A stretch of DNA of 43,841 nt. Origin: Cyclobacteriaceae bacterium (GTDB lineage Bacteria; Bacteroidota; Bacteroidia; Cytophagales; Cyclobacteriaceae). Under the pieces are notes generated by a model that had not been told where the DNA came from, ran no database searches, and saw only the letters and a program-made list of their open reading frames with translations. The position numbers and the translations under genes were made by a program. This document shows, piece after piece, positions 22,571 to 39,240 of this stretch (the stretch's first letter is position 1; every line of letters starts with the position of its first letter). The DNA lies in contig JAOUKH010000005.1 of NCBI GenBank assembly GCA_029882685.1, positions 1 through 43,841 of the forward strand, read 5' to 3'.

Positions 22571-23104
22571 TTGAATTCTATATTATTAAAAAAAGAAATA
22601 CTAAAAGACCGATCAAGTTCTCATAGACAATTTTTAATAGAACAAATCAATAACAGCCCTGATTTATATAGTCACCTCATTGACTATTCTTTTGATAAAA
22701 ATCAAGTATTAGCTTTTCGAGCTTCTTGGATACTGGATAATGTCACTGAAAAATACCCAACTATCATTAGTCAGCCATCTCATCTACATAAGATAATAAA
22801 CAAGGTGGTTACACTATCCAATTACTCTGTCATTAGAGCAATTGTAAGACTTCTTACTCGCATTAACATTCCTGAAAAGTATTTGGGAACTATTGTACAT
22901 CAATGTTTTTTGTGGTTGGAAGCATCACAAACTCCAATAGCCGTAAAAGTACACTGTATGCAAATACTATTAAATGCTGTTAAACGTCAACCCGAATTAA
23001 AGAATGAATTGCAAATGGCAATTCAAACTCAATTGCCTTTTGGTAGTAAAGGTTATAAGGCAAGGGGTAAAAGAATTATAGAAGAGTTAGACAATATTTT
23101 CTAA
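22571..23104 (+). CDS. Helical-repeat (HEAT-like) cytosolic protein
   Basis: 177 residues, starting with TTG at 22571, one base after the preceding stop. No ATG occurs in frame before about residue 130, so the TTG start and translational coupling are likely. The protein is nearly all alpha-helical, with paired amphipathic helices such as LAFRASWILDNVTEKYP and SVIRAIVRLLTRI, the pattern of HEAT/ARM-type repeats. No signal peptide. I recognise no named family; a protein-binding scaffold role is inferred. It is convergent with the saccharopine dehydrogenase-like gene, their stop codons overlapping by four bases. Confidence 0.75.
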   Translation: MNSILLKKEILKDRSSSHRQFLIEQINNSPDLYSHLIDYSFDKNQVLAFRASWILDNVTEKYPTIISQPSHLHKIINKVVTLSNYSVIRAIVRLLTRINIPEKYLGTIVHQCFLWLEASQTPIAVKVHCMQILLNAVKRQPELKNELQMAIQTQLPFGSKGYKARGKRIIEELDNIF

Positions 23105-24583: not shown

Positions 24584-25060
24584 ATGATAATATTGAACAA
24601 TAACAAGATAACTTATAATAGCATAAATGATATCCCTGATGACGAGCAGGAATTAATAAAAAATGCTTTTATGGCTACCAACAATTCCTACGCTCCATAT
24701 TCTAATTTTCATGTGGGGGCAGCTCTACTATTAGGGAATGGTACAATTATTAAAGGGTCAAATCAAGAAAATGCAGCTTACCCGTCTGGTCTTTGTGCCG
24801 AACGTGTTGCAATTTTTCATGTCATGAACTCTTATTCTGATCAAAAAATTAAAAAAATTGCTATAACTGCTCGCAAAAAAGATTCAACTGATTATATACC
24901 AGCTTCACCATGTGGTGGTTGTCGTCAAGTAATGTTAGAACAAGAACAAAAACAACAAGAAAAAATTGAGGTGATTTTCCAAAGTAATGGAAATTGGATG
25001 AAAGTTTTTACCATAATGGAGCTACTACCATTCAGCTTTGACAAAAACTCATTAAAATAA
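24584..25060 (+). CDS. cdd: Cytidine deaminase
   Basis: Deaminates cytidine and deoxycytidine to uridines in pyrimidine salvage; cytosolic homotetramer. 158 residues, slightly above the usual 130-150. The zinc ligands and catalytic Glu are present: Cys71 and Glu73 in LCAERVA, and Cys110 and Cys113 in PCGGCRQ. The N-terminal SYAPYSNFHVGAAL is the conserved substrate-binding segment. Upstream a TTTG at about 24541 and a TATCTTTTTG near 24568 resemble a promoter with short spacing. It is a single-gene unit. Confidence 0.95.
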   Translation: MIILNNNKITYNSINDIPDDEQELIKNAFMATNNSYAPYSNFHVGAALLLGNGTIIKGSNQENAAYPSGLCAERVAIFHVMNSYSDQKIKKIAITARKKDSTDYIPASPCGGCRQVMLEQEQKQQEKIEVIFQSNGNWMKVFTIMELLPFSFDKNSLK

Positions 25061-25178
25061 AGTTGCAAATCATCCTTGATTAATCATTTTTTTGTAGATT
25101 AAAAGTTCGATTCGATTTTGAGGCGTAGTTGTATTAATGTTATGCTTTAAATTGAAATTTAGAAATCTAATACTTTTT

Positions 25179-27530
25179 ATGAAATTGAATTTGAAGAATA
25201 TTTCCATTAGGGATCGTATTTATTTTGTTATCTTCTTATTCCTAGTATCTGCTATATGTAGTGCAATAATACTTCATTCTTTCCTAAATAAAACTAATGA
25301 ATTCTCGTCACAACTAAGTGCCGTTCATAAGCTTCAAGATCATGTATTATTACTTAACAAAAACTGTAACACTATTTTTAAAAGAAATATCTACGATGTA
25401 AAAGAGGAAATAAAAAATCAAGAAGATATAATTAGCAACGATATTTTGGCTATAGCCATGGGAGGAAATGTTTCTCTACTAAACAAAAAAGTAAAGCCAC
25501 TTTCAAAAAACGCAGCAAAAAATATACAAACAACTATTACAAGTTGGGACTCAAACTTAACTAATCTTGCCCTAATTCAAGAACTTCCCCAGAAAATGGA
25601 TTCTACGTTTTTTGAAGAAAAATTGATACCGGTAAATGACTCTATCAATCAAAGTGTTTTAATTGAAAAAACCATATTAGTCAATAATGTTGAAATGAAA
25701 GAAGCTGTACAAACTGTTTCTAAATCATTACATAATCTTAATCAATCCATTCAAAAGATACTTGATAGTATTTTTATACAACTACAAAATAGCTACTCTA
25801 ATTACAATATTGCCTTTATTATCTTAGGAGTTATCAACTTAATCATTTTTAGCTTTTCCTTCTATTGGATAAGAAAGAGCGTTGTTATTCCACTCAAAAT
25901 GGTTGGTCAACATGCTCAAACAATAGCTAATGGAAATTTAAGCAACCAATTTGAATATAAAAATAGTGATGAAATAGGCGATATATCATCCTCAATCAAT
26001 AGAATGACATCCTATTTACAAAATGCATCTGAGTTTGTTCATCAAATAGGAGATGGAAATCTTGATAGCCAATTTAAAGGTATTGATGAGTCAAAAGTTA
26101 ATGAGGGTAGTCTGGCTCATGCACTTACCTCTATGAGAGAAAAGCTTAAAGTTATTTCTACTGCCGATGAAAAAAGAAATTGGACTACACAAGGGATCGC
26201 AAAATTCGCCAATATCATTCGTAATAATAATGATAGCCTTAAACAATTAAGCAGTGTTATAATGTCATCACTTGTGGAATATTCTGATACTAATCAGGGG
26301 TGCATGTACATTCTTGATGAAGATGAAAACGAAGTTCCTTATTTAAATCTCAGCACTTATTATGCATATGATGTTGAAAAATTTCATAAGGATAAAATAA
26401 TGCTCGGTGAAGGTATAGTAGGTCAGACATTTTTGGAACAAAAAACTACTTACTTGGTAGAAATACCTGAAGGTTATATGAGATTAAAATCTGGACTTGG
26501 TCGTTTAGACCCTCATGCGGTATTAGTAGTTCCTCTAATTGTAAACGATGAAGCATTTGGGGTTATAGAATTAGCTTCATTTAATGAAATAGATAAATAT
26601 AAAATTGAGTTTATTGAACAACTTGGTGAAATGATTGCTTCTTCCATTTCTAATGTTAGAAATAACGAAAGAACTCAGCAGCTTCTAGATGAATCGCAAA
26701 AGTTAGCTGAACAAATGAAATCACAAGAAGAAGAAATGCGTCAATACATTTTAGAAAACCTCTCTAACACTCAAGAAGGAAAAAGTGAAGAGGATAGTCA
26801 ATCACAGGTAATCATTACTGCTATAGAATCTTCTTTTGCAACTGCAGAATTATCTATAGAAAACATTGTAGAAAATGCAAATGCTGAATTTTTGAACTAT
26901 TCAAAATTCGATAGCTTAGACGATATTATCGGAAAGAATATATCAAACCTCATTACTCCTTATAATTCAGAAGGTACAATATCTAATTTGTCGAGAGATT
27001 TAAAAAGTGGAAATACCATTCAGGGAATATACTATATCAACAAAACATTATCGAACGTAGTAATGATACCTACAAAATTAATGAGTGACGAGCATAATAA
27101 AATAATGTTTTTCGCCCTACCTATTAATCAAGCTTTAATCCCTTCGGCTACTGACAATCATTTAACTGATCTAGAAGAAGAACTACAGCAAAATTTGGAT
27201 TCACTTCAGGTTGCAGAAGAGGCAATACGTAATAAAATTAATCATTATAACACGATTGAAGATATATTAGGAATTAGCATTATTGAGAAAATGCAAATTG
27301 TATTTGCAAATCAAACATTTAAAAATAGGTTCGGTAATGAATTTACAGTTAAAACTAATAAAATAATGCTTGCTGATATTTTAGATGACAAATTAATTAC
27401 TTCTATTCAAGAAGCTATTGATAATGTAGTGGAAATTAGTATTAATACCACTCTAGATGATAATGAGGTTAATTTAAAAATTATTCCTATAAAAGGATCA
27501 AAACAAACGGTCATGCTATCCTATAATTAG
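25179..27530 (+). CDS. Membrane sensor: periplasmic domain, tandem HAMP, GAF, coiled coil, PAS-like
   Basis: 783 residues from the ATG at 25179 (an in-frame ATG at 25137 would add 14). Numbered from 25179: TM1 about 14-36, a helical periplasmic domain about 37-208, TM2 about 209-229, HAMP about 231-286 (with DEIGDISSSINRM), a second HAMP-like unit about 287-330, GAF about 350-495 (GEGIVGQ, VEIPEGY, LVVPLIV), a coiled coil, then one or two diverged PAS-like domains to the C-terminus. No kinase, cyclase or methyl-accepting output is present, so it must signal through partners. Its HAMP-GAF part resembles that of the phosphatase at 30050. It is first in the signalling gene run. Confidence 0.85.
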   Translation: MKLNLKNISIRDRIYFVIFLFLVSAICSAIILHSFLNKTNEFSSQLSAVHKLQDHVLLLNKNCNTIFKRNIYDVKEEIKNQEDIISNDILAIAMGGNVSLLNKKVKPLSKNAAKNIQTTITSWDSNLTNLALIQELPQKMDSTFFEEKLIPVNDSINQSVLIEKTILVNNVEMKEAVQTVSKSLHNLNQSIQKILDSIFIQLQNSYSNYNIAFIILGVINLIIFSFSFYWIRKSVVIPLKMVGQHAQTIANGNLSNQFEYKNSDEIGDISSSINRMTSYLQNASEFVHQIGDGNLDSQFKGIDESKVNEGSLAHALTSMREKLKVISTADEKRNWTTQGIAKFANIIRNNNDSLKQLSSVIMSSLVEYSDTNQGCMYILDEDENEVPYLNLSTYYAYDVEKFHKDKIMLGEGIVGQTFLEQKTTYLVEIPEGYMRLKSGLGRLDPHAVLVVPLIVNDEAFGVIELASFNEIDKYKIEFIEQLGEMIASSISNVRNNERTQQLLDESQKLAEQMKSQEEEMRQYILENLSNTQEGKSEEDSQSQVIITAIESSFATAELSIENIVENANAEFLNYSKFDSLDDIIGKNISNLITPYNSEGTISNLSRDLKSGNTIQGIYYINKTLSNVVMIPTKLMSDEHNKIMFFALPINQALIPSATDNHLTDLEEELQQNLDSLQVAEEAIRNKINHYNTIEDILGISIIEKMQIVFANQTFKNRFGNEFTVKTNKIMLADILDDKLITSIQEAIDNVVEISINTTLDDNEVNLKIIPIKGSKQTVMLSYN

Positions 27531-27673
27531 GATGTACTATATGTTGTTACTGAAATACATTACATCATAATAAATATATTAATTTTTTGCCCTTATAATC
27601 CTTTAGATATGATATATTTATAGTGTCTATTTTTAGTGAAGTTGGTGGCTTTTAACATTCAATCATAAGTAAT

Positions 27674-28498
27674 ATGGCGGAAATCGAAATTGCAGACATA
27701 AAAAAGATTGCTGAGGTTGTAAAAAACAAATACAACTACGACTTTACAAATTATGCTATGTCTTCCTTTAAAAGGAGAATTCAACGTATTCTAGATTTAT
27801 ACAAAATAAATAATGTAAATGCTCTTTTAAAGAGAATTTCTGAAGACTCTGCTTTTTTTGAAGAGTTTTTAGTTGAAATAACCGTGAATGTTACTGAAAT
27901 GTTTCGCGATCCTTCGTTTTGGCGTGTGTTAAGAGATGACATTATCCCTTCTATTATGCTGAATCATGATAAAATTAGAATTTGGCATGCTGGCTGCTCA
28001 TCAGGGGAAGAAGTTTTTTCAATGGCTATTTTGCTTAAAGAAATGGGTGTTCTAGAAAACACTCAAATAATTGCCACCGATTTAGATAAAGAAATACTTA
28101 AGAAGGCTAAATCTGGAAAATATTCTTTAAAAAATATGGAGTTGAATAAAAAAAATTATGTTCGATTTCAGGGCAACTCATCAATTGAAGAATACTATAC
28201 TGAACAAAAAGGAATTGCAGTTATGAATCCCTCTTTGGTAGAAAATGTTTCTTTCAGAGAACACGATTTAGTGCAAGGCGAAGTCTTTAATAAATTCGAT
28301 CTTGTTCTATGCAGAAATGTAATGATTTACTTTAATCAAACATTGCAAAACAATGTGTTGAAAAAATTTCATGAAAGTTTATTCAAATTTGGATATTTAA
28401 TAATAGGCTCTAAAGAGTCATTAATTTGGTGTGATATCGCTAATAAGTTTATTGTAGTAAATAATGAAGAGAAAGTTTATAAAAAATATAAAGACTAA
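27674..28498 (+). CDS. CheR-type SAM-dependent protein methyltransferase
   Basis: 274 residues, standard length for stand-alone CheR, which methylates glutamates of chemoreceptors. The N-terminal helical domain (about 1-70) is followed by NVTEMFRDPSFW (72-83), the CheR signature region. The SAM-binding loop is HAGCSSGEEVFS (105-116), and ATDLDKEIL and DLVLCRNVMIYF also match the family. It sits 29 bases before a CheB gene, with no CheA, CheW or methyl-accepting protein in the window. Its substrate may be a neighbouring sensor (inference). It starts 143 bases after the HAMP-GAF sensor. Confidence 0.93.
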   Translation: MAEIEIADIKKIAEVVKNKYNYDFTNYAMSSFKRRIQRILDLYKINNVNALLKRISEDSAFFEEFLVEITVNVTEMFRDPSFWRVLRDDIIPSIMLNHDKIRIWHAGCSSGEEVFSMAILLKEMGVLENTQIIATDLDKEILKKAKSGKYSLKNMELNKKNYVRFQGNSSIEEYYTEQKGIAVMNPSLVENVSFREHDLVQGEVFNKFDLVLCRNVMIYFNQTLQNNVLKKFHESLFKFGYLIIGSKESLIWCDIANKFIVVNNEEKVYKKYKD

Positions 28499-28527
28499 GA
28501 ACTGCTCGAAATTGGTGATTTCCTAAA

Positions 28528-29121
28528 ATGAACAAATATAATTTAAACAATAAGTATAAAGCAATAGTTATCGGTGGATCGGCAGGTAGCTTCCAAGGTA
28601 TTACCAAGATTTTATCCAACCTTTCACCTGATTTTAAATTGCCTCTAATATTATGCTTACATAGACTGAAACATGTAAGAAATGGCTTTGTTGAGGCTCT
28701 ATCGCTTAAAAGCGTGATGACTGTTTGTGAACCTTATGATAAAGAAAATGTAAAAAAAGGGAAAGTATATTTAGCTCCAGCTAACTATCATATGTCAGTA
28801 GAACTCGGTAATTACTTTAGCCTTTCAACAGAAGAGATGGTGAATAATTCTCGGCCTTCAATAGACATTACCCTAGGAACATCGGGTTATGTATATAAAG
28901 AAAAACTAATTGGAATACTTTTATCTGGAGCTAATAAAGATGGAGCATTAGGAATGAAAAACATAAAAAATAAAGGAGGCCTTACAATTGTTCAAGACCC
29001 CAAAGAGTGTATGATTGACACTATGCCTTCTGCAGCTTTAGATATTACTGAAATTGACTATATTTTAGGGGTTGATGGAATTATATCTTTTTTAAATGAA
29101 TTAAATTCGCATTATAAATAA
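28528..29121 (+). CDS. CheB-type methylesterase, catalytic domain only
   Basis: 197 residues matching only the C-terminal catalytic domain of CheB, which removes methyl groups from receptor glutamates or deamidates glutamines. The serine-hydrolase triad is present: Ser18 in IGGSAGS, His45 in CLHRLK and Asp138 in SGANKDGA. There is no N-terminal receiver domain, so it is not regulated by CheA phosphorylation. It pairs with the CheR gene upstream; the GAF gene follows after 8 bases. Such CheB-CheR pairs in Bacteroidota are often found with non-chemotaxis sensors. Confidence 0.92.
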   Translation: MNKYNLNNKYKAIVIGGSAGSFQGITKILSNLSPDFKLPLILCLHRLKHVRNGFVEALSLKSVMTVCEPYDKENVKKGKVYLAPANYHMSVELGNYFSLSTEEMVNNSRPSIDITLGTSGYVYKEKLIGILLSGANKDGALGMKNIKNKGGLTIVQDPKECMIDTMPSAALDITEIDYILGVDGIISFLNELNSHYK

Positions 29122-29129
29122 TAGTAGGA

Positions 29130-30029
29130 ATGAGCGAAAAAAATATAAAACTTAACTATTTATTCACAACACTGTTCATCACCAGTATAATATACACTAC
29201 TTTTAAGCTATTTAGCTTACAAGATGATCTAATTCTTAGCTCACAAGTTTTGGATTCTAGCCAAATAGCATCAATAAGCCCTGTACTATTCCAATTGTAC
29301 ATTGCTGTTGGCTCTGTTATTCTTTCTGGGATAATTGTTTTAGCATTCAGTTTTAAATCTGAATCAATAAATAACGGAATAACCAATATCACTAGTGACA
29401 ACAACTATACTGAAGATTCAAAAAACAGTTCATCTTCTAACTCAGACAACAATAAAGCAAAGTTAGATGTGGGCTTTATTATAGATGCATTAAAAAACAA
29501 AAAAGATAAAAAGGAAGAGTTTAATATTATCTTAAATTTAATTTGCAAAAAGCTTGAACTAGGTCAAGGTGCTATTTATACCCCAGTAGAAATTAAAGGT
29601 GTTCGGTATGTTGAATTTAACACTGGCTATGCTTTTAGTTTTGCTGAAAGTGAAACTATTAAGTTCGAATTTGGAGAAGGGTTAATTGGACAAGCTGCCA
29701 AAGAGGGTGAGACTTTAGTTATTGATGAAATTCCCGACAATTACATCAATATCATTTCAGGCTTAGGAAATGCCTCTCCAAAACACTTACTTATATTACC
29801 GATTTTAAAAGGGAAGACAATACAGGCAGTAGCTGAATTTGCCTCATTCAATAAATTCTCTAATGAAAACATTGACTTAATTAAAGAAAGTTTTAATATT
29901 CTATTCAAATCAGTTTCTGAACCTAGTAAGACTGATAATAAAGGAAAAGAAAAGATAATCACTAAGTCTAACGATGAGAAATCAACAAAGTCTGAATCTT
30001 CAGCGAAGAATAAAAAATCAGGGAACTGA
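29130..30029 (+). CDS. Membrane-anchored GAF-domain protein
   Basis: 299 residues. Two transmembrane helices (about 8-30 and 51-75) form a hairpin. A Ser/Asn/Asp-rich linker (79-112) leads to one GAF domain (about 113-262) with the motifs GEGLIGQ, DEIPDNY, SGLG and EFASFNKF. A Lys/Ser-rich tail (263-299) ends the chain. No output domain is present. The GAF is closely similar to those encoded at 25179 and 30050, suggesting local duplication. It lies between cheB and the phosphatase gene with 8- and 20-base gaps, firmly inside the operon. Confidence 0.83.
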   Translation: MSEKNIKLNYLFTTLFITSIIYTTFKLFSLQDDLILSSQVLDSSQIASISPVLFQLYIAVGSVILSGIIVLAFSFKSESINNGITNITSDNNYTEDSKNSSSSNSDNNKAKLDVGFIIDALKNKKDKKEEFNIILNLICKKLELGQGAIYTPVEIKGVRYVEFNTGYAFSFAESETIKFEFGEGLIGQAAKEGETLVIDEIPDNYINIISGLGNASPKHLLILPILKGKTIQAVAEFASFNKFSNENIDLIKESFNILFKSVSEPSKTDNKGKEKIITKSNDEKSTKSESSAKNKKSGN

Positions 30030-30049
30030 ACTCATATTTAAATTTAATT

Positions 30050-33000
30050 ATGTTTAAAAATATTAAAATAGGGACAAAAATAACATCTGTAGTAATTGCA
30101 ATAGTTCTTATTACAGTAGCTACCATAAGTTATTTAACCTACAACCTTAGCAAAAAGTCAATTGAACGAAGACAAGATGATAATCTGAATGTTCTTGCAA
30201 ATATGCGAGTGGACAAAATCAAATCATATATTACTCAAATTAATAAAAATGCTCACCTTATAGCTTCATCTGAACTGGTTAAAAATGCTGTTACAACTAA
30301 AAACAATACTGACAACCCTTTCTCCACTAACCCTTTTGGCTCAACCTTAAATGAAGAAGAAGGGGCTATGGGTTTTTTCTTATCATCTTCTACAGAAGAT
30401 GATTTAAGAATTTATATCAACGATGTAAATAATGCTTTTGATTACAAAAATATAGCCATTACCGATCCTGATGGACAAACTTTATATGCTACTGATATTA
30501 CTAAAGAAGGAAATACTTACGCTACACCAACTAAGAAGTTTATTAGTGAAGCAAATGATACCCTTGTATATAGCAGCACTTTTATAGAAAAAGGGGGGTT
30601 CTATATAATAAATGGATCTCCAATCAAAGATAATTTCAACGTCACTATTGGACTAGTCTTTATCAAATTTGAAATTAGTTCTATATACGATATTCTACAA
30701 GACTCTACTGGCCTTGGTAAATCAGGAGAGGTAGTTCTGGGAACTCAAGACCAAAGTAAAACACGAATACTATTTCTTAACCCACTAAAAACTAATAATA
30801 ATGAAATTCTTAGTCCAAAAGAGTGGGAGAATAACATAGAAAATGCTACTCCTATTCAATTGGCAATTGATGGAAATAATGATGCAGGTAAAGAATTTGA
30901 CTACAGAGGAACTCCAATTCTAGCTGCATGGAGAAATATTCCAGAATTAAATTGGGGATTGGTTACTAAAATAGATCAAAGTGAAATCTATGCTGAGATT
31001 GATGAATTACTGTGGAAATTTGTGTTTTCAGGATTATTCATAGCCTTAATCACTTCATTTATTTCAATTTTATTTTCTAAAATACTTGTTGCTCCTATTC
31101 AAGTATTAAAAAATACACTCGATTTAGTAGGTCAGGGTATATTACCTGAAGAAGTCAATTTAAAATCAAACGATGAAGTTGGTCAAATGGCATCGACAGT
31201 TAACAACTTAGTACAGGCACTAAAAAGAACCGCTAGCTTTGCCAACCAAATTGGTACTGGAGATTTTGATGCAAAGTTTAAACCCTTGGGAGAAAATGAT
31301 GCTCTGGGATTATCATTGATTACTATGCGTGACAATCTTGTGGAAGCTGAAAAACGTGATACGGAACGTAATTGGATTGTGACAGGAGTTGCCGAAATAG
31401 GGGAAATTCTTCGAATACATAACAATTTGGAAGATTTAGGTGATGATGTAATAAAGTTTATCATCGGTAAAATTGATGCCATTCAAGGAGCTTTTTATGT
31501 AGTAGAAGATAGTCAAGAAGATGATCATGGAATTATTTCTTTAAAATCTAGTTATGCCTATAATAGAAAAAAATATCTTCAAGCAGAATTTAAATTTGCT
31601 CAAGGACTTGTTGGGCAAGCTGCAATAGAACAAGACACTATCATTCGTACTGAAATCCCAGATGAATATGTGACCATTACTTCTGGTATTTTAGGTGATA
31701 AAAAACCTACCTGTATTCTTATTGTACCGCTTATTACTAACGAAAAAGTGTTTGGTGTTCTTGAATTTGCAGGTTTTAATCGATTCTCTGATGTACAGAT
31801 AAAGTTTGTAGAAGAGCTAAGTTTAATTCTAGCACGTACAGTGTATAACATTAAAGTTAATGACCGTACTAAAAACCTTTTGGAAGAATCTCAAGCAATG
31901 AGTACTGAATTACAGGAAAAACAAGAAGTGCTACGACAAAATGCTGAGGAAATGCAGGCTACACAAGAAGAGTTAAAGCGTTCTAATTCTCAGCTCGAAG
32001 AACAAATTGAAGAAGTAAATAACTCACAAAAACGTATGCAATTACTTCTAGAAAATGCTTCTGAAGTAATTACTATATATGAGGAGAATGAATCAATTCG
32101 ATATGTAAGTCCATCGGTTGAGCCTATATTAGGCTATAAACAAAATGAACTTATAGATACCACAGATATTAATTTTGTATTACCTGAATATGTTGAACTT
32201 GTAAAAGGTATGTTTGAAAAATTATTAAATAATCCTTACGAACAGGTTACTATTCAATACGAATACATGACTAAAAGAGGTGTGCCTATCTGGATTGAAT
32301 CAACTGGTACTAATTTCATGTCAAACCCAGCCATTCAAGGTATAATAGTTAACTCTACAGATATTACTGAACAAAGAAGAGCCGAGCAAGAACAACGTAT
32401 GCGAAGTAAAATGCAAGCTCTATCCGAAAATTCTCCTGATTTAATTACTAGACTTGAAAATGATGGTCCCATTTCCTATATCAATCCAGTTATCGAAACC
32501 ATTACTGGAAACAAACCTGAGGAATACCTAAATAAAAATTTAGTAGATACAGACATTAATAAATCAATTGTTGATCAATGGTTAAATATTATTGAAGATG
32601 TAAAAAACACTAATAAAAACATTGCCGATGAAATTGATTTTATTTCTGAAGAAGGAAAAAGGATTATGCATGTAAATGCTATTCCAGAATTTGATGAATC
32701 AAAAAATTTGGAATCTGTTTTAGTTGTATCACATGATATTACTGCAAGAAAATTGATAGAACTTGAAGTTCAAAACAAGAATAAGAAGATAAATGACAGT
32801 ATCAACTATGCTAAACGTATTCAGGGTGCCATCCTACCAAATACAAACATCATAAATCGTACACTTCCTGATTCATTTATTTTTTATAAGCCAAAAGATG
32901 TTGTAAGTGGTGATTTTCCTTGGTATGTACGTGTAGGTGAAGAAATTTATATTGCTGCTGTAGATTGTACTGGGCATGGTGTTCCAGGAGCATTACTTTC

Positions 33001-33541
33001 TTTGATTGGCTACTTTTTATTAAACGATATAGTGAGAAGCCGGAAAGTAAATGATCCTGGGCAAATATTGGATCAACTAGATGAAGGGGTTACAACTACG
33101 CTTCGTCAAGATCAAGATGATTCTAAAACTAAAGATGGAATGGATATAGCCCTATGCAAAATTGACCATGAAAAACGCCATGTTGAATATGCTGGAGCAC
33201 ACCGTCCTCTCTATGTTATGAAAAATAATGAAATGGTGGAGATTAAAGGAAATAAATTTGCTATCGGTGGTGGTATATATAAAAACCAAACCAACTTTAC
33301 TACTAGTAAATTGAAATTGGAAAAAGGAGATTCTATATATTTCTGCTCTGACGGCTATCCTGATCAATTTGGTGGGCCCGAAAACAGAAAATTTGGACCA
33401 AAGAGAACGAGAGAAATCATTCATAATGTGTACGATAAATCTATGCGAGAAGCATCAGAAGAATTTGAGAATCAATGGATAAATTGGCAAGGTGATGAAA
33501 AACAGACCGATGATGTATTATTAATCGGAATAAAATTTTAA
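30050..33541 (+). CDS. SiaA-like sensor phosphatase: Cache-HAMP-GAF-PAS-PAS-PP2C (SpoIIE type)
   Basis: 1163 residues. TM1 about 10-31, a large extracytoplasmic double-Cache-like domain (about 33-322), TM2 about 324-346, HAMP about 347-400 with a second HAMP-like unit, GAF about 455-603, a long coiled coil (605-662), PAS1 about 662-775, PAS2 about 785-900, and a SpoIIE/PP2C phosphatase domain from about 935. The phosphatase has KPKDVVSGDF, AVDCTGHGVPG (metal-binding Asp972), SDGYPDQFGG and TDDVLL. In Pseudomonas, SiaA dephosphorylates SiaC in response to an extracellular cue. SiaB- and SiaC-like genes follow directly, which supports that role. Confidence 0.88.
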   Translation: MFKNIKIGTKITSVVIAIVLITVATISYLTYNLSKKSIERRQDDNLNVLANMRVDKIKSYITQINKNAHLIASSELVKNAVTTKNNTDNPFSTNPFGSTLNEEEGAMGFFLSSSTEDDLRIYINDVNNAFDYKNIAITDPDGQTLYATDITKEGNTYATPTKKFISEANDTLVYSSTFIEKGGFYIINGSPIKDNFNVTIGLVFIKFEISSIYDILQDSTGLGKSGEVVLGTQDQSKTRILFLNPLKTNNNEILSPKEWENNIENATPIQLAIDGNNDAGKEFDYRGTPILAAWRNIPELNWGLVTKIDQSEIYAEIDELLWKFVFSGLFIALITSFISILFSKILVAPIQVLKNTLDLVGQGILPEEVNLKSNDEVGQMASTVNNLVQALKRTASFANQIGTGDFDAKFKPLGENDALGLSLITMRDNLVEAEKRDTERNWIVTGVAEIGEILRIHNNLEDLGDDVIKFIIGKIDAIQGAFYVVEDSQEDDHGIISLKSSYAYNRKKYLQAEFKFAQGLVGQAAIEQDTIIRTEIPDEYVTITSGILGDKKPTCILIVPLITNEKVFGVLEFAGFNRFSDVQIKFVEELSLILARTVYNIKVNDRTKNLLEESQAMSTELQEKQEVLRQNAEEMQATQEELKRSNSQLEEQIEEVNNSQKRMQLLLENASEVITIYEENESIRYVSPSVEPILGYKQNELIDTTDINFVLPEYVELVKGMFEKLLNNPYEQVTIQYEYMTKRGVPIWIESTGTNFMSNPAIQGIIVNSTDITEQRRAEQEQRMRSKMQALSENSPDLITRLENDGPISYINPVIETITGNKPEEYLNKNLVDTDINKSIVDQWLNIIEDVKNTNKNIADEIDFISEEGKRIMHVNAIPEFDESKNLESVLVVSHDITARKLIELEVQNKNKKINDSINYAKRIQGAILPNTNIINRTLPDSFIFYKPKDVVSGDFPWYVRVGEEIYIAAVDCTGHGVPGALLSLIGYFLLNDIVRSRKVNDPGQILDQLDEGVTTTLRQDQDDSKTKDGMDIALCKIDHEKRHVEYAGAHRPLYVMKNNEMVEIKGNKFAIGGGIYKNQTNFTTSKLKLEKGDSIYFCSDGYPDQFGGPENRKFGPKRTREIIHNVYDKSMREASEEFENQWINWQGDEKQTDDVLLIGIKF

Positions 33542-33628
33542 CTTAGGAAATTAAGCATTGGTTTTATTTCCAATGTATTATTAATACTTTTAAATAATTG
33601 AAATGAATATCAATAAAAAAGCAAACTC

Positions 33629-34168
33629 ATGAAATATATCTATGAATTGCACAAAAGAATGGTGGATCATGACCTGATTTTGGTGTACGAAGGAGAGTTT
33701 ACTCAAGAAATCACAAAATCTGTTTTATCCATGGCGGAACGAAACATGGATTCTTCGGGGGAAGAATCAACAATAAAAAGAAAAGTATTCAACGTCATGG
33801 TTGAATGTCTGCAAAATGTGGTAAAACATGCTGATCAACTTAATAATAAAAACCCCAATCACAATGCTGTTTTTATGGTTGGTAAACATGAGGATCAATA
33901 CACCATTATTTCTGGAAATCCTATAAAAGATGAAAACATCTCTATAGTTCAAGAAAAAATTGACCAGATTAATAGTTTGGATAAAGATGGTTTGAAACAA
34001 CTTTATAAGGATATTATTAAAACTACCGAAATATCTGAAAAAGGAGGTGCTGGTCTTGGGTTTGTAGATATGGCTCGAAAATCTGGACAAAAATTAGAGT
34101 ATGATTTTGAAAAAATGGATAACGGTTTTTCCTTTTTTGCGCTTAAATCAAATATAAAAAGACAATAA
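33629..34168 (+). CDS. SiaB-like GHKL-fold protein kinase
   Basis: 179 residues, cytosolic. A histidine-kinase-like ATPase (GHKL) fold is indicated by an N-box, VECLQNVVKHAD (Glu59, Asn63, His67), and a G-box, GGAGLGFVDMA (139-149). In the Sia system of Pseudomonas the SiaB kinase phosphorylates a Thr of SiaC, opposing the SiaA phosphatase. The SiaC-like gene follows 21 bases downstream and the phosphatase lies 87 bases upstream. Length and partners match SiaB better than anti-sigma RsbW-type kinases, which pair with STAS proteins. Confidence 0.82.
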   Translation: MKYIYELHKRMVDHDLILVYEGEFTQEITKSVLSMAERNMDSSGEESTIKRKVFNVMVECLQNVVKHADQLNNKNPNHNAVFMVGKHEDQYTIISGNPIKDENISIVQEKIDQINSLDKDGLKQLYKDIIKTTEISEKGGAGLGFVDMARKSGQKLEYDFEKMDNGFSFFALKSNIKRQ

Positions 34169-34189
34169 CTATTATAAATAATAATCGAT

Positions 34190-34552
34190 ATGGAAATTTT
34201 AAATCTGGAAGGAGCTGAAGATACCCCTAAAATAATTTTAGATAAAGGAAATGGAATTTATGAAATTTCAGGAAGGTCATTACCTGAAGATTCAGCAGAA
34301 TTCTATCAACCTGTTTTGGATTGGATCGAAGAGTACAATAAAGATCCTAACCCTGAGACAGAATTTGTTTTTAAATTAGAATATTTTAACACAGCTTCTT
34401 CAAAATTAATTTTAGATGTGCTTTCAGCACTTGAAGATGTACAAGGGTGCAAAATCACTTGGTATTTCCATGAGGATGATGAAGACATGGAAGAAGCTGG
34501 AGAAGAATTTTCGGAATTGGTGGAAATTCCATTTGAATATAAAACATATTAA
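34190..34552 (+). CDS. SiaC-like (DUF1987) regulatory phosphoprotein
   Basis: 120 residues, acidic, cytosolic. It matches the DUF1987/SiaC pattern: a strand-rich N-terminus (PKIILDKGNGIYEISGRS), then FKLEYFNTASSKLILDVL and the acidic WYFHEDDEDMEEAGEEF. Thr68 in YFNTAS falls at the same position as the Thr that, as I recall, SiaB phosphorylates in Pseudomonas SiaC. There, unphosphorylated SiaC binds and activates the diguanylate cyclase SiaD. No GGDEF gene is present here; an ABC transporter follows after 57 bases. SiaC's target in this organism is unknown. Confidence 0.82.
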   Translation: MEILNLEGAEDTPKIILDKGNGIYEISGRSLPEDSAEFYQPVLDWIEEYNKDPNPETEFVFKLEYFNTASSKLILDVLSALEDVQGCKITWYFHEDDEDMEEAGEEFSELVEIPFEYKTY

Positions 34553-34609
34553 TTTTTTAGTTGCTCTCTTTCCATTCAATCTATTAAAAGCAACTTTTAG
34601 AAATAGTAT

Positions 34610-37600
34610 ATGAGCGAGGAAATACTTAAAGCCTTAACACAATTATTTGGTATTATCACTAAACAGGATGGTGGTGTTACGGAAAAAGAACGACAATTTG
34701 TTATTGATTTTTTTCAACAGGAATTAGATCAGGATTCTGTTAAAGAATACCTTGAGCTATATGATAAATACGTTGGTTATAAAAAAGAAGGCGAAAAAGA
34801 AAATGTAGAAGAGGAAAGCAAGGAAAAATCCCAAAAAAAGAAAGGTAAACTTACCTCTGTACGGGACTCTGTAAAAACCTTGGGGCTTTGTAAAAAAATC
34901 AACAAAACCCTTACTCAGAAACAAAAAGTAGTCGTTTTGGTGAAAATTCTTGAACTAGTAGGTTCTGATAAGAATTTTACTCCACAACGGATGGAAATCA
35001 TTGACACTATTTCATCTGTATTTAATATTGTTAAAGATGAGTATAAGCTTATTGAAAGCTTCGTTTTACAAGAAAATACTGAAAATCTTCAGTTTAACGA
35101 TATTTTATTAGTAAATAAAGAAATAGTTGATGATAACAAAGAGAGTAAAAGTAAAGAAGAAATAAAAACTGATGAAGCAGGCTTTCCAATTGAAAAAGGG
35201 AAAGCAAAGCACTTTCAGGCCGAATTAGATGGTAATCTAATTTTTATGAGCCTTAAGACGGTTGATATGTACTTTGTAAAGTACTTGGGTAGTAATGAAA
35301 TTGTGATGAATGGCTTCATTATGTTAACCAATCGAGTTTACTTATTTTCACAAGGAAGTACAATTAAAACCCCAGCTGGTGATGCTCTGTATTATAGTGA
35401 TCTCATCACCCATTTCATTTCTGATTTAAAAATCAGTAACATTTCCTTTAATGCTAATAATATTGTTTTCAAATTTCCTAATGGGGGAATAGGTCTTCGA
35501 GATGTAAATATTTCAGAAGGGCCAGGGAAACTCATAGGTATTATGGGAGCTAGTGGAGCGGGGAAAACCACCTTATTAAATGTACTTGCTGGCATTGAAA
35601 AACCTACTGAAGGAGAACTACTTATTAATGGGTATAATATCCATACGCAAGAAGATAAAGTTCAAGGAGTAATTGGTTATATAGCACAAGATGATCTTCT
35701 TATTGAAGAGTTAACCGTTTACGAAAATCTTTACTATAATGCCAAACTCTGCTTTGCTAACATGTCAGAAGATGAGTTAGATGAACGAGTAATGAACGTT
35801 CTTACTAGCTTAGGTCTAGATCAACGTAAAGATCTTAAAGTAGGTAGTGTTTTGGATAAAACAATAAGTGGTGGACAAAGAAAACGCCTGAATATTGCAC
35901 TCGAATTAATAAGAGAGCCTGCCATAATGTTTGTTGATGAGCCTACATCAGGTCTATCTTCTAGGGATTCGGAAAATGTTATTGATTTACTGAAAGAGCT
36001 TTCCTTAAAAGGAAAATTAATTTTCGTTGTCATCCATCAACCTTCATCGGACATCTATAAAATGTTTGATAAGATGTACATTATGGATACAGGTGGTTAC
36101 CCTATTTTTTATGGAAACCCAATTCATGCAGTTACTCATTTTAAAGAAGTCACCCGTCAAGTAGATAGCCAAAGAGGTCAATGCGAAACCTGTGGTAATG
36201 TAAATCCAGAACAAATATTTAACATTATTGAGGCAAAAGTAGTTGATGAATATGGTCAGCTTACTAATAAGCGTAAAATGAGTCCTCCACAATGGAATGA
36301 ACAATACCTTAAGAAATTTAAAATTGATAAAATAGAAGATGTAAAAGAAGAACCTCCTCAGTCTTTAAATATTCCTTCTAAAATAAAGCAGACCATAATA
36401 TTTACTGTGAGAGACACACTGTCAAAACTCAGCAACAAACAGTACTTATTAATTAACTTATTGGAGGCTCCTCTTTTAGCTATAATTTTAGCATTCATTA
36501 TACGTTACAAAAGCTCTCCTGCGGGGGATGAGTATATTTTCAGGTTTAATGAAAATATACCTGCATTTATGTTAATGAGTATTGTTGTTGCCTTATTTAT
36601 GGGTTTAACAGTAAGTGCTGAAGAAATCATTAGAGATAGAAAAATACTTAAAAGAGAGTCTTTTCTTAATCTTAGCTGGAACAGTTATTTATTTTCAAAA
36701 TTATTAATCTTATTCACGATGTCTGCCATACAAACATTCATGTTTGTATTAATTGGCAACCTTATCCTTGAAATTCAAGGAATGACTTTTAGTTTTTGGC
36801 TCGTGCTATTTTCCGTTTCATGCATGTCAAACGTATTAGGGTTAAATATATCATCAGCATTTAATTCTGCCGTTACTGTATATGTAATTATACCTCTACT
36901 TCTTATTCCTCAAATGATTTTAAGTGGATTATTATTTAGTTTCGATAAATTAAATAATATAATAAGTACAAAGGGGAAAGTGCCTATTGTAGCTGATTTC
37001 ATGGCCTCTAGATGGGCATATGAAGCAATGGCTGTTTATCAATTCAAAGAAAATGATTATTCAAAACCTTATTATAAATACGAGAAACAAGAATTACAAG
37101 CTGATTTTAAGTCTTCATATTTAATTAAAGAATTGAAAAAGAAAAATCAGTATGTAATAGAAAATATTGCAACTGAAAATGATTCAATCAAAAATATTAT
37201 ATCAAAAGATCTAAATATTATTAAAGAAGAAATTTATAAGGAAAAATTTAGAGTAGGGCTTGAAGATTTAGATATAAACAAGGCATTAAATATAGAAACT
37301 TATAATTCATCCATTAATAAAATTATTGCGAACTACTTTGATGCATTAAGAAAAAATTATTTAGGCTCTTACAATGAAGCTGTAAATACTAGAGAGAAAT
37401 TCGTGTTATTTAAGGAAAAGTCTGGAGATTATAATTTGAATGAATATAAAAACAAATATTATAATGAAAGCCTATCCGATTTTGTTAGAAATATAAGTGT
37501 TAAAGAAAGAATAATTGAGTATAAAGGAAAGTTATTGCAACAGGTTGATCCCATATATCACGATCCTGATAAACCAAATCACTTTCTTGATTACAGAACA

Positions 37601-37774
37601 CATTTTTTCGCACCTGTTAAACATATTGGGGGTCAGTATTTTGATACTTACGGGTTTAACTTATCTGTAATATGGATAATGACATTAGTTTTCTATATCA
37701 CATTGTATTTCGAATTACTTAGAAAATTCTTATCTTCATTTGAGAAATTTAATTTTTTCAAAAAGAAAGAATAG
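34610..37774 (+). CDS. ABCG-type ABC transporter half with TerB-like N-terminal domain
   Basis: 1054 residues. Residues about 1-155 are helical and acidic with two TerB/TerL-like segments (ILKALTQLFGIITKQDGGVTEKE at 5-27 region; LVKILELVGSDKNFTPQ at 110-126) around a Lys/Glu linker. A beta-rich stretch (about 205-275) precedes the nucleotide-binding domain (about 276-510): Walker A GASGAGKTT, signature ISGGQRKR (419-426), Walker B IMFVDEP and H-loop His476. The membrane part has ABC2-type helices from about 620, interrupted after SRWAYEAMAVYQF by roughly 200 mostly helical extracytoplasmic residues before the last helix. Domain order (NBD then TMD) is ABCG-like. The substrate is unknown. Confidence 0.87.
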   Translation: MSEEILKALTQLFGIITKQDGGVTEKERQFVIDFFQQELDQDSVKEYLELYDKYVGYKKEGEKENVEEESKEKSQKKKGKLTSVRDSVKTLGLCKKINKTLTQKQKVVVLVKILELVGSDKNFTPQRMEIIDTISSVFNIVKDEYKLIESFVLQENTENLQFNDILLVNKEIVDDNKESKSKEEIKTDEAGFPIEKGKAKHFQAELDGNLIFMSLKTVDMYFVKYLGSNEIVMNGFIMLTNRVYLFSQGSTIKTPAGDALYYSDLITHFISDLKISNISFNANNIVFKFPNGGIGLRDVNISEGPGKLIGIMGASGAGKTTLLNVLAGIEKPTEGELLINGYNIHTQEDKVQGVIGYIAQDDLLIEELTVYENLYYNAKLCFANMSEDELDERVMNVLTSLGLDQRKDLKVGSVLDKTISGGQRKRLNIALELIREPAIMFVDEPTSGLSSRDSENVIDLLKELSLKGKLIFVVIHQPSSDIYKMFDKMYIMDTGGYPIFYGNPIHAVTHFKEVTRQVDSQRGQCETCGNVNPEQIFNIIEAKVVDEYGQLTNKRKMSPPQWNEQYLKKFKIDKIEDVKEEPPQSLNIPSKIKQTIIFTVRDTLSKLSNKQYLLINLLEAPLLAIILAFIIRYKSSPAGDEYIFRFNENIPAFMLMSIVVALFMGLTVSAEEIIRDRKILKRESFLNLSWNSYLFSKLLILFTMSAIQTFMFVLIGNLILEIQGMTFSFWLVLFSVSCMSNVLGLNISSAFNSAVTVYVIIPLLLIPQMILSGLLFSFDKLNNIISTKGKVPIVADFMASRWAYEAMAVYQFKENDYSKPYYKYEKQELQADFKSSYLIKELKKKNQYVIENIATENDSIKNIISKDLNIIKEEIYKEKFRVGLEDLDINKALNIETYNSSINKIIANYFDALRKNYLGSYNEAVNTREKFVLFKEKSGDYNLNEYKNKYYNESLSDFVRNISVKERIIEYKGKLLQQVDPIYHDPDKPNHFLDYRTHFFAPVKHIGGQYFDTYGFNLSVIWIMTLVFYITLYFELLRKFLSSFEKFNFFKKKE

Positions 37775-37814
37775 TCAATGAAATAACTATATATTAGCAA
37801 TTACAATATTAATA

Positions 37815-37845
37815 TTTGTAATACTTAAATGAATTTTTAATTTTG
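37815..37845 (+). promoter_or_regulatory. Bacteroidota-type promoter for the lipoprotein gene
   Basis: TTTG (37815-37818), exactly 19 bases, then TAATTTTG (37838-37845): a perfect consensus match. The start site would fall near 37851, so translation must begin at the ATG at 37867, not at the earlier in-frame codons at 37843 or 37849. It gives the last two genes of the run separate expression. Confidence 0.65.
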
Positions 37846-37866
37846 TTTATGGTAAACAAAAAGTAT

Positions 37867-38775
37867 ATGAAAAAATTACTGATAGGAATAATAGTGTTGA
37901 GCATTGCTGCATGTGGACCTAGCAAGGATGAACAAGCTCAAAATGAATTTGAAAATCAATTGGCAGCTGATTCTACCAATTCTGGAGGGCCTGAAATTTC
38001 TCCAGAGGTTATTGCGTCTATTATTGAGTCCATACCCTCTCCATTGGAAATCTCAGTATTGCTAAAAGAGTCTGGCACGAAATATGACGTAGCATTATTA
38101 AATGCTTCAAGTAACACTTCTAAATATAACAGCAACTATAGTAAGTCGCTTAATTTAGGAATTTATGGTACTGATCTAGGGTATACCAATATTTACTCTC
38201 AGAATCAAGATGGATTAGATTATATGTCATCTATTAAAGAATTAGCTGACGGATTAAATATTGGACAGTTCTTTGATATTGAAACTATTGGAAAGTTAGC
38301 TACAAACAGTAATAATTTAGATTCTTTGCTATTAGTCACTACTCAAAATTTCAACGCAATTAACACTTATTTACAAGATCAGGAACGTTCGCACTTAAGT
38401 GTACTATTATTGACTGGAGGGTGGATAGAAGCGATACATATTACATGTCAAGTTTCTTCTAAGGATCCTGAAAATCTACAATTGCAAGAAAAAATAGGTG
38501 AGCAAAAAATTATTTTAGAAAACATTATGCTTCTATTATCATTCTATAGTGAAACTTATCCAAATATTGCGACCCTAATGCAGGATTTTGAAGAATTAAA
38601 AGGAGCATTTGATGACATTGAAATTACTACCATATACAAAGAATCAACAATGGAAATTGTTGATGGTGTTATGGTAATACATGACAATAGTGAAAGTAAT
38701 GTAAATATTACAACTGAAAATGTAGAAGAAATTAAAAATCTTATCTCTAAAATAAGAAGTAAGATAATAAGCTAA
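37867..38775 (+). CDS. Envelope lipoprotein of unknown function
   Basis: 302 residues from the ATG at 37867. The signal sequence ends in the lipobox SIAAC, with lipidated Cys16, followed by GPSKDEQ. The mature protein is acidic and mostly helical, with patterns such as SKYNSNYSKSLNLGIYGTDLGY and LTGGWIEAIHITCQ and a C-terminal helix (EEIKNLISKIRSKI). No named family is recognised. It lies 92 bases downstream of the ABC transporter but has its own promoter. The small secreted protein follows after 33 bases. Position suggests it works with the signalling and transport locus (inference). Confidence 0.8.
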   Translation: MKKLLIGIIVLSIAACGPSKDEQAQNEFENQLAADSTNSGGPEISPEVIASIIESIPSPLEISVLLKESGTKYDVALLNASSNTSKYNSNYSKSLNLGIYGTDLGYTNIYSQNQDGLDYMSSIKELADGLNIGQFFDIETIGKLATNSNNLDSLLLVTTQNFNAINTYLQDQERSHLSVLLLTGGWIEAIHITCQVSSKDPENLQLQEKIGEQKIILENIMLLLSFYSETYPNIATLMQDFEELKGAFDDIEITTIYKESTMEIVDGVMVIHDNSESNVNITTENVEEIKNLISKIRSKIIS

Positions 38776-38808
38776 ATAACACAAAGATAATAACGAAAGA
38801 ATTAGTGT

Positions 38809-39240
38809 ATGAAAAAGTTATTCAATTTACTAGCACTGGGAACAGTTTTGAGTTTAATAAGCATTGATGCTAATGCACAATGTAATGCAGATACATATAC
38901 AAATACCTGTATTCCTAAATTGTCTTCTGGTTTTAATTTTTTAAAGAGTTATAAAATTGATGGTGCTGGAGGAGGTAAATCAAAAGTTGAGTATTCCTAC
39001 GTGTTTACAAAAGGCACTCAATACATGATTAATATATGTGCCGAGGGAGAAACAACTGACGGTATTGTTGTTACCTTGTACGATTCAAAGCGTCAAAAAG
39101 TAGGAACTAGTGTATATAATGGTCAGTATTTAACAGCTATGGCTTACCCATGTAACACAACCGGGATTTATTATATTACTTACACTTTCGAGAATTCTGC
39201 AAACTATTGCGGAGGTAGTGCTCTAGGATTTAAACGATAA
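38809..39240 (+). CDS. Small secreted cysteine-containing beta-rich protein
   Basis: 143 residues. Signal peptide about 1-23 (DANAQ). The mature part has five cysteines (25, 34, 77, 115, 134), suggesting disulfides, and an all-beta pattern: YSYVFTKGTQYMINIC, DGIVVTLYDSK and TGIYYITYTFE. This resembles pre-peptidase C-terminal (PPC) type beta-sandwiches, by pattern only. It is co-transcribed with the lipoprotein gene from 37815-37845 and ends before a strong terminator. Function unknown. Confidence 0.78.
   Translation: MKKLFNLLALGTVLSLISIDANAQCNADTYTNTCIPKLSSGFNFLKSYKIDGAGGGKSKVEYSYVFTKGTQYMINICAEGETTDGIVVTLYDSKRQKVGTSVYNGQYLTAMAYPCNTTGIYYITYTFENSANYCGGSALGFKR

Follow-up and report, generated by a model that had tools for sequence, protein, structure and literature searches.

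A SiaA-SiaB-SiaC-type threonine switch probably directed at an ABCG-type exporter in Bacteroidota

In the SiaABCD system of Pseudomonas aeruginosa, a PP2C phosphatase (SiaA), a SiaB-family kinase and the SiaC protein with its residue Thr68 are encoded consecutively, and the partner of SiaC shown so far in the accessible parts of the open-access literature is a diguanylate cyclase. Rv1747 of Mycobacterium tuberculosis, a putative exporter, is encoded in an operon with the Ser/Thr kinase PknF, which modulates Rv1747 (PMC3908365), and the FHA domains of Rv1747 bind a regulator (PMC5549992). An action of SiaC or SiaB on an ABC transporter is not described in the titles and abstract openings of the open-access literature, and nothing was found in that literature that joins SiaC, an ABC transporter and SpoIIE; a modulating effect of DUF1987 proteins on their neighbours is suggested in one report (PMC8457831).

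We analysed a window of 43,841 nt from the forward strand of contig JAOUKH010000005.1 of a Cyclobacteriaceae bacterium (GCA_029882685.1); all coordinates are positions in this window. The original prediction had placed a phosphatase, a SiaB-like kinase, SiaC and a transporter consecutively at 30050-37774, and the coordinates and domains of these four genes are as it described. It had, however, drawn the system too narrowly: the conserved unit, cheR-cheB-gafM-siaA-siaB-siaC-transporter-lipoprotein-secreted protein, spans 27674-39240, and the cheR, cheB and gafM genes, the lipoprotein, the secreted protein and an FHA-like domain of the transporter had been missed. The features are as follows.

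27674-28498, forward strand: cheR, methyltransferase, first gene of the cassette (Pfam CheR, 1.8e-45)
28528-29121, forward strand: cheB, methylesterase of 197 aa, sole Pfam domain CheB_methylest (1.5e-46), without a receiver domain
29130-30029, forward strand: gafM, N-terminal hydrophobic segments and a GAF domain (Pfam GAF_2, 8e-8)
30050-33541, forward strand: siaA-like sensor phosphatase, dCache-HAMP-GAF-PAS-PAS-PP2C (Pfam; PP2C match to SiaA, 6k4e)
33629-34168, forward strand: siaB-family kinase, DUF6272 (NCBIfam SiaB_fam_kinase, 179.9 bits; cut-off 85)
34190-34552, forward strand: siaC, predicted phosphoprotein with Thr68 (Pfam PF09345 SiaC, E 3.3e-38)
34610-37774, forward strand: TerB-FHA-like-ABCG half transporter (ABC_tran, ABC2_membrane, TerB below cut-off)
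34610-35074, forward strand: TerB-like helical domain, transporter aa 1-155 (structure model matches 2h5n, Z 10.2, and 2ou3, Z 8.2)
35087-35407, forward strand: FHA-like beta domain, transporter aa 160-266 (Foldseek and VIA matches of the model)
37843-38775, forward strand: lipo, conserved lipoprotein (lipobox Cys column nearly invariant in 15 sequences)
38809-39240, forward strand: sec, small secreted protein (signal-peptide-like N terminus, by eye; QC invariant in 12)

The cassette occurs in Cytophagales and in Bacteroidales/Marinilabiliales. Among 80 named loci, cheR is kept upstream in 56, while cheB is present in 57, gafM in 58, lipo in 71 and sec in 68. The membrane segments of GafM were read by eye from its sequence. 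Neither Lipo nor Sec matched an entry in Pfam or NCBIfam, and a search of PDB sequences yielded no clear relative of either protein.

Similarity to the Pseudomonas proteins is clear for the PP2C domain and for SiaC. The PP2C domain of the SiaA-like protein matches that of SiaA (6k4e) with an E-value of 6e-40, and its site is intact, with five Asp columns that show no variation across the 80 homologues examined (95 were found). The domain order proposed for this phosphatase was confirmed: a dCache_1 match (29.8 bits, under the Pfam cut-off of 45) is followed by HAMP, GAF, two PAS and SpoIIE/PP2C domains. The GAF and two PAS domains distinguish it from Pseudomonas SiaA, which is not known to carry either. 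In SiaB, Glu59 and Asn63 are invariant in all 114 homologues examined; Glu61 of Pseudomonas SiaB is predicted to be catalytic, and by this comparison Glu59 and Asn63 are the likely catalytic residues. Thr68, which had been called conserved by position, is residue 68 of the window SiaC and shares an alignment column with the NTS motif of the P. aeruginosa protein (6kko/6k4f, E 4e-15); of 113 distinct SiaC proteins that are linked to a transporter and at least 95 aa long, 112 have it. All three proteins missed the NCBIfam equivalog cut-offs (SiaA, 220.6 versus 700 bits; SiaB, 88.8 versus 225; SiaC, 82.7 versus 150). Judging from family membership and the intact catalytic residues, SiaB would phosphorylate SiaC at Thr68 and SiaA would remove the phosphate. 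Since the active sites of kinase and phosphatase are invariant in the homologues examined and Thr68 is kept, selection seems to maintain the switch wherever it occurs.

In contrast to the Pseudomonas system, there is no siaD here; an ABCG exporter gene follows siaC, and genes for CheR, CheB and a GAF protein precede siaA. As the original prediction had held, SiaD is missing, and no SiaD-type GGDEF protein was found elsewhere either: GGDEF domains number zero in the window's own genome (89% complete) and zero in 148 genomes of the order. With this result, a SiaD-type diguanylate cyclase output was rejected.

The transporter had been described as a TerB-like ABCG protein, and it indeed carries ABC_tran and ABC2_membrane domains together with a TerB match (1.6e-4) that, at 22.4 bits, stays under the Pfam cut-off of 24.4. 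Its core shares the fold of the ABCG2, ABCG5-ABCG8 and ABCG25 structures (VIA Z about 30-32 over roughly 520-560 residues). These entries are eukaryotic, and the N-terminal TerB-FHA part lay outside the range aligned in the full-length model search; this part was folded alone. In the model of the TerB-like domain, aa 61-82 form a charged linker of low confidence. For the beta domain located between TerB and the nucleotide-binding domain (NBD), most Foldseek and VIA rows were FHA domains (Z 6-8), with a best Foldseek E-value of 0.03; the sequence profile was sub-threshold (E 0.47), and Pfam calls no FHA domain in the transporter. On the strength of the model, an FHA fold N-terminal to the NBD is moderately supported. 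Canonical FHA domains bind phosphothreonine through the GR, SxxH and first NG residues. None of these was evident by eye in the window transporter or the A1 alignment, and the domain is apparently a degenerate one that has lost the canonical phosphothreonine-binding residues.

An ABCG-type core of NBD and transmembrane domain (TMD), preceded by an FHA fold, is the architecture of the Rv1747 type, a likeness that is moderately supported here. Unlike Rv1747/PknF, however, the present locus combines TerB with one degenerate FHA-like domain, has SiaA, SiaB and SiaC instead of a Hanks-type kinase, and includes a lipoprotein and a secreted protein. Among the ten proteins encoded at 25137-39240, we found no Pkinase match and no sigma or anti-sigma family member. 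The locus also differs from RsbU-RsbW-RsbV in that the window SiaC belongs to PF09345 and is not called STAS.

The transporter proved to be conserved next to siaC in relatives. On the same strand and at most 600 bases upstream of the transporter gene, siaC is found in 65 of the order's 92 transporter-bearing genomes and in 69 of the 80 named loci; adjacency conserved across genomes to this extent rules out chance. Variants exist: siaC is upstream with one gene in between (L172), 1212 bases upstream (L089), or divergent from the transporter together with siaB (L153), while at L132 the transporter has siaB as its neighbor and the locus yielded no siaC. The transporter has no siaC upstream in 26 of the 92 genomes, five of which offer fewer than 500 bases of upstream sequence, and in G437 it is present with neither SiaB nor SiaC detected. 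Across the 148 genomes of the order, SiaC was found in 95; both proteins occur in 90 genomes, only the transporter in two, only SiaC in five and neither in 51. Within the window's own family, five genomes have both and six have neither. In a first, thinned SiaC tree (32 linked of 113 and 28 unlinked of 35 rows), the transporter-linked proteins were strongly clustered, with two label changes compared with a mean of 20.5 after shuffling. A second thinned tree (15 linked, 24 unlinked and 13 class-level rows) placed second-copy SiaC proteins of L091, L092 and L100, which are not beside a transporter, on long branches within the linked clade. Among the ORFs listed at the fetched loci, we noticed no fusion of SiaC to the transporter.

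A natural deletion is the strongest evidence that SiaC acts with the transporter, as far as comparison of genomes can suggest it. In four Cyclobacteriaceae/Cytophagales MAGs (L102, L106, L111 and L115), no SiaB and, at E 1e-5, no SiaA-type PP2C protein was detected, and there is exactly one SiaC each, whose gene adjoins the transporter gene. In L102, L111 and L115, genes matching window positions 23101-24441 and 24584-25060 are followed by siaC-transporter-lipo-sec, and the genes from the HAMP-GAF gene through siaB are missing. In the three with a complete siaC, this gene is under purifying selection, its dN/dS ratio of about 0.05-0.07 being close to the 0.04-0.05 of the transporter. The four MAGs are related, and a single loss event may account for them. 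Like gene order, orthology and the absence of GGDEF domains from the searched genomes, this retention of SiaC and transporter without the switch enzymes was computed directly. Because Lipo and Sec carry export signals, the transporter is the sole cassette-wide product within reach of a cytosolic SiaC.

We therefore favor, at a probability of roughly two in three, the view that the locus encodes the full SiaA-SiaB-SiaC threonine switch, with an ABCG-type exporter and not a diguanylate cyclase as its output. The original suggestion that phosphorylation of SiaC may control the transporter, an output other than c-di-GMP, gains support from this comparative evidence. The target of SiaC would most likely be the cytosolic TerB-FHA part of the exporter, with unphosphorylated SiaC as the permissive form.

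It is also conceivable, though rather unlikely, that the cassette SiaC acts on another target, for instance an anti-sigma-like regulator encoded elsewhere, and that the exporter is merely co-transcribed as part of the same response. SiaC structurally resembles anti-sigma-factor antagonists, according to one report (PMC7647112), and two further SiaC proteins are present in the genome, which has three in total; it also has three TerB-ABC proteins, so that cross-talk is possible. Moreover, the transporter family often occurs without a nearby siaC: in a class-level sample of one locus for each of 33 families, taken among the transporter matches listed, 20 of the 33 fetched stretches showed no siaC. 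Nor did SiaC co-vary with TerB once NBD and TMD were taken into account (partial r -0.10, 95 rows). Against this stands the persistence of SiaC next to the transporter in genomes without detectable siaA and siaB, and the recurrence in other families (among the class-level matches listed) of a tail-to-tail arrangement of siaC and transporter, which one transcript cannot explain; these tail-to-tail loci mostly carry a SiaC outside the cassette clade in the second tree. In favor of the exporter as target, the TerB domain has 31 conserved positions in linked transporters versus nine in unlinked ones, with smaller differences in NBD and TMD; this comparison used hand-picked rows from the fetched loci (66 linked, 47 unlinked and 8 tail-to-tail) with phylogeny not controlled. 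Against it, few of the 31, namely two, are specific to linked copies, and positions corresponding to the SiaD contacts of Pseudomonas SiaC were not enriched among those distinguishing linked SiaC (permutation p 0.64). By eye, the TerB helix at aa 82-100 bore no convincing likeness to the motif through which SiaD binds SiaC.

Improbable in our judgment is that SiaC is mainly a transporter subunit needed for assembly or stability, its phosphorylation playing a minor role or none today. Such a role would fit the retention of SiaC without kinase and phosphatase, and the replacement of Thr68 by Pro in L106, but it is at odds with the invariant active-site residues of both enzymes in the homologues examined and with Thr68 in 112 of the 113 linked proteins. 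Very improbable is a reversal of roles, with the transporter as sensor and the switch as its output, in which transport flux or substrate binding would feed SiaA/SiaB/SiaC much as flux-sensing ABC transporters signal to some histidine kinases. The conservation of sensor phosphatase and transporter together in one cassette would fit this view, but the four genomes keeping SiaC and the transporter without detectable SiaA and SiaB are the reverse of what it predicts, and for this reason we rejected it as the main explanation.

With an exporter as the output of the switch, signaling might proceed as follows. The dCache sensor of SiaA would read an envelope signal, with the CheR, CheB and GAF proteins possibly tuning SiaA; SiaB would phosphorylate SiaC at Thr68 and SiaA would reverse this step. 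Unphosphorylated SiaC would then bind the cytosolic TerB-FHA module and permit transport, whereas phospho-SiaC could not; we infer this sign from the genomes that lack kinase and phosphatase and keep SiaC and transporter. Exporter, lipoprotein and small secreted protein would together handle an envelope substrate.

The CheR and CheB methylesterase domains are those of chemotaxis systems, but the cassette CheB has no receiver domain, and Pfam detects no MCP, CheA or CheW in the cassette. The window's own genome has three MCP and four CheW matches, all on other contigs. A match to the MCP signaling domain is absent from 16 of the 33 genomes with a cassette cheB, so that the substrate of CheR/CheB is probably not a canonical MCP there. 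We would raise, tentatively and as a doubtful proposition when taken as a whole, that CheR and the receiver-less CheB adapt the sensor phosphatase, whose substrate SiaC would be an activating subunit of the TerB-FHA-ABCG exporter; in a machine widespread in Bacteroidota, threonine phosphorylation of a small partner protein would then directly gate an ABC transporter, with no part played by c-di-GMP, a sigma factor or a Hanks kinase.

SiaC was found in 95 of the 148 genomes of the order, in none of which a GGDEF domain was detected, and the cassette offers a concrete alternative target for it, making a role of SiaC outside c-di-GMP signaling directly testable. The cassette also raises the possibility that CheR and CheB adapt a protein phosphatase. 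If our main reading is true, an exporter would be added to the outputs of partner switching of the SiaA/SiaB/SiaC kind, and a transport locus conserved in Bacteroidota, which includes two uncharacterised envelope proteins, would for the first time become approachable.

The nine genes of the cassette occupy positions 27674-39240 of the window, and their short intergenic gaps (29, 8, 20, 87, 21, 57, 68, and 33 bases) and location on a single strand are consistent with their being one operon. The gene coordinates and domain calls on which the original prediction was built were correct when the window was re-examined.

Genes of the cassette (window 27674-39240), in order
cheR: first gene, + strand
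cheB: second gene, + strand, methylesterase domain only
gafM: third gene, + strand, GAF protein with hydrophobic segments at its N terminus
siaA: fourth gene, + strand, phosphatase (dCache-HAMP-GAF-PAS-PAS-PP2C)
siaB: fifth gene, + strand, DUF6272 kinase
siaC: sixth gene, + strand
TerB-ABCG transporter: seventh gene, + strand
lipo: eighth gene, + strand, lipoprotein
sec: ninth gene, + strand, small secreted protein

Directly upstream of cheR, window 25137-27530 encodes a HAMP-GAF membrane protein resembling the HAMP regions of MCP and SiaA; it did not cluster with genes of 20 relatives' and paralogue loci. From their translations, we take the products of window 5252-6778 and 15995-20233 to be caspase-like and TPR-CHAT-like, respectively.

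Taken at a probability of roughly two in three, our sequence comparisons point to a SiaA-SiaB-SiaC threonine switch whose output would be an ABCG-type exporter rather than a diguanylate cyclase. Thr68 of the window SiaC falls at the NTS motif in an alignment with P. aeruginosa SiaC, whose phosphosite is likewise Thr68 (PMC7278518; PMC8457831), and among 113 distinct transporter-linked SiaC proteins of at least 95 aa this position is Thr in 112 and Pro in one. Glu59 and Asn63 of SiaB are invariant in all 114 homologues examined, as are the five PP2C aspartates of SiaA in the 80 homologues compared, out of 95 found. A search with the window's PP2C domain hits the solved phosphatase SiaA with an E value of 6e-40, and NCBIfam labels the window SiaB a SiaB-family kinase; none of the three proteins reaches its NCBIfam equivalog cut-off. 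By analogy, the cassette may work like Pseudomonas SiaABC, but it is not a member of the SiaABCD systems because SiaD is absent. Searched at E 1e-8, the order's 148 genomes yielded no GGDEF domain, and no match passed the Pfam cut-off; none was found in the window's own genome either (3.43 Mb in 248 contigs, 89% complete), while the same search detected them in 8 of 14 control genomes; on these searches, a SiaD-type output in this order is not supported.

Transporter and SiaC were detected in 92 and 95 of these 148 genomes, respectively (together in 90, the transporter alone in 2, SiaC alone in 5, and neither in 51), a co-occurrence whose p-values are inflated by kinship among the genomes; in the family to which the window belongs, the two occur together in five genomes and neither was found in six. 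Judged by the best transporter of each genome, siaC lies on the same strand no more than 600 bases upstream in 65 of 92 genomes (locus L011 included), and one gene intervenes in L172; five of the remaining 26 (L174, L178, L208, L218, L222) offer less than 500 bases of upstream sequence. A scan of named genomes yielded 80 loci, which are best query matches and not a random sample, with siaC at most 600 bases upstream in 69 (L091 and L094 included) and at 1212 bases in L089. siaC precedes the transporter in, among other hosts, Fulvivirga, Marivirga, Nafulsella, Persicobacter, Flexithrix, Flammeovirga, Alkaliflexus, Carboxylicivirga, and Plebeiobacterium. Counts of the other genes across the 80 loci, depressed by contig ends, are siaB 65, siaA 61, gafM 58, cheB 57, cheR 56, lipo 71, and sec 68. 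In the Bacteroidales-type loci (L131-L163), a second cheR is often present, and SiaA often has a shorter length of about 870 aa.

Linked SiaC proteins cluster strongly in the SiaC tree (2 label changes vs. 20.5 in shuffles); the single unlinked row inside the cluster is L153, where siaB and siaC are divergent, beside the transporter. In a second tree, the second-copy SiaC of L091, L092, and L100, not adjacent to a transporter, falls on long branches within the linked clade. These copies follow the cassette at a distance of a few genes, encoded on the other strand and accompanied by a SiaB-like protein of 366-367 aa, double the usual length.

At the class level, the transporter is present in 157 and SiaC in 172 of 295 genomes. 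Among one locus each for 33 families among the matches listed, siaC is directly upstream of the transporter in three (L252, L253, L256), directly tail-to-tail with it in six (L259, L260, L273, L274, L277, L283), and one to five genes away in four (L257, L261, L263, L284); it was not seen in the stretch around the transporter in 20. Seven of eight tail-to-tail or nearby SiaC proteins (L257 and L261 included) fall outside the clade holding the cassette SiaC, so that the pair occurs as neighbours in either of two orientations, and the SiaC subfamilies involved differ. The tail-to-tail order may be a single inherited arrangement.

A natural deletion bears on the sign of the proposed switch. In L102, L111, and L115, siaC, the transporter gene, lipo, sec, and a hydrolase gene come straight after counterparts of window 23101-24441 and 24584-25060, with no counterpart of the HAMP-GAF gene, cheR, cheB, gafM, siaA, or siaB in between; in L106, the contig starts within siaC. 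The four genomes, all MAGs that may descend from one event, yielded no SiaB, no SiaA-type PP2C at E 1e-5 (present in two comparison genomes), and exactly one SiaC, the copy beside the transporter. The L106 SiaC has Pro in place of Thr at position 68. Among the other three, dN/dS is 0.05-0.07 for siaC and 0.04-0.05 for the transporter, approximate values as dS is mostly >1. Of the remaining products, lipo and sec bear export signals, which leaves the transporter as the only one that SiaC in the cytosol could encounter, save for the less conserved hydrolase or a product encoded elsewhere. That selection maintains the transporter alongside a SiaC with no SiaB to phosphorylate it argues that unphosphorylated SiaC would permit transport. 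In Pseudomonas, unphosphorylated SiaC activates SiaD (PMC7278518).

The full-length transporter model (mean pLDDT 87) has an ABCG core (VIA Z about 30-32 against ABCG25, ABCG5/8, and ABCG2). Its N-terminal 277 residues, modelled alone (pLDDT 88.6), contain a TerB-like bundle (2h5n, Z 10.2; the tellurite resistance protein 2ou3, Z 8.2), with a low-confidence prediction for aa 61-82 between TerB helices, and a beta domain for which FHA domains make up most of the structural hits (Z 6-8; best Foldseek E 0.03; FHA profile match at E 0.47 only). We call this modelled domain degenerate FHA-like because the canonical phosphothreonine-binding residues of FHA are not evident by eye. The transporter resembles FHA-ABCG exporters such as Rv1747, which, according to PMC3908365, is modulated by a kinase of its own operon. 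Conserved positions in linked vs. unlinked copies number 31 vs. 9 (TerB), 134 vs. 109 (NBD), and 91 vs. 85 (TMD); TerB thus appears relatively more conserved in linked copies, in sets that differ in relatedness.

Two sequence tests of the SiaC-transporter link were negative, namely co-variation of SiaC with TerB given NBD and TMD, and enrichment of Pseudomonas SiaD-contact positions among those distinguishing linked SiaC. In L132, siaB adjoins the transporter and no siaC turned up at the locus; genome G437 carries a transporter, but no SiaB or SiaC was detected in it, so at least some members do without SiaC. The window's own genome has three SiaC proteins and three TerB-ABCG transporters, and we cannot say which pairs interact. 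Its second siaB-siaC pair lies downstream of POT-family transporter genes (L066, G000:C10, 2643-3583), its third siaC beside a radical-SAM/SPASM gene (L067, G000:C180, 12386-12757). TerB-ABCG paralogues lacking a nearby siaC (L064 1292-5402, L069, L072, L075; L065, L070, L073) adjoin the same lipoprotein family in some cases and not in others.

The window's own genome has three MCP and four CheW matches, all on other contigs. Of 33 genomes whose cassette includes cheB, 16 gave no match to an MCP signalling domain, so CheR and CheB there probably modify something else, perhaps SiaA or a GAF protein.

Genomes G047 and G102 each yield 27 or more SiaC matches (27 being the number of candidates scored), and such abundance in an order without detected GGDEF domains suggests that SiaC probably has many other outputs in these bacteria. 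No description of this SiaC-transporter system was found in the titles and abstract openings surveyed. DUF1987 proteins have been suggested, in PMC8457831, to modulate adjacent proteins, and the present locus makes a strong case of such a protein beside a new kind of neighbour.
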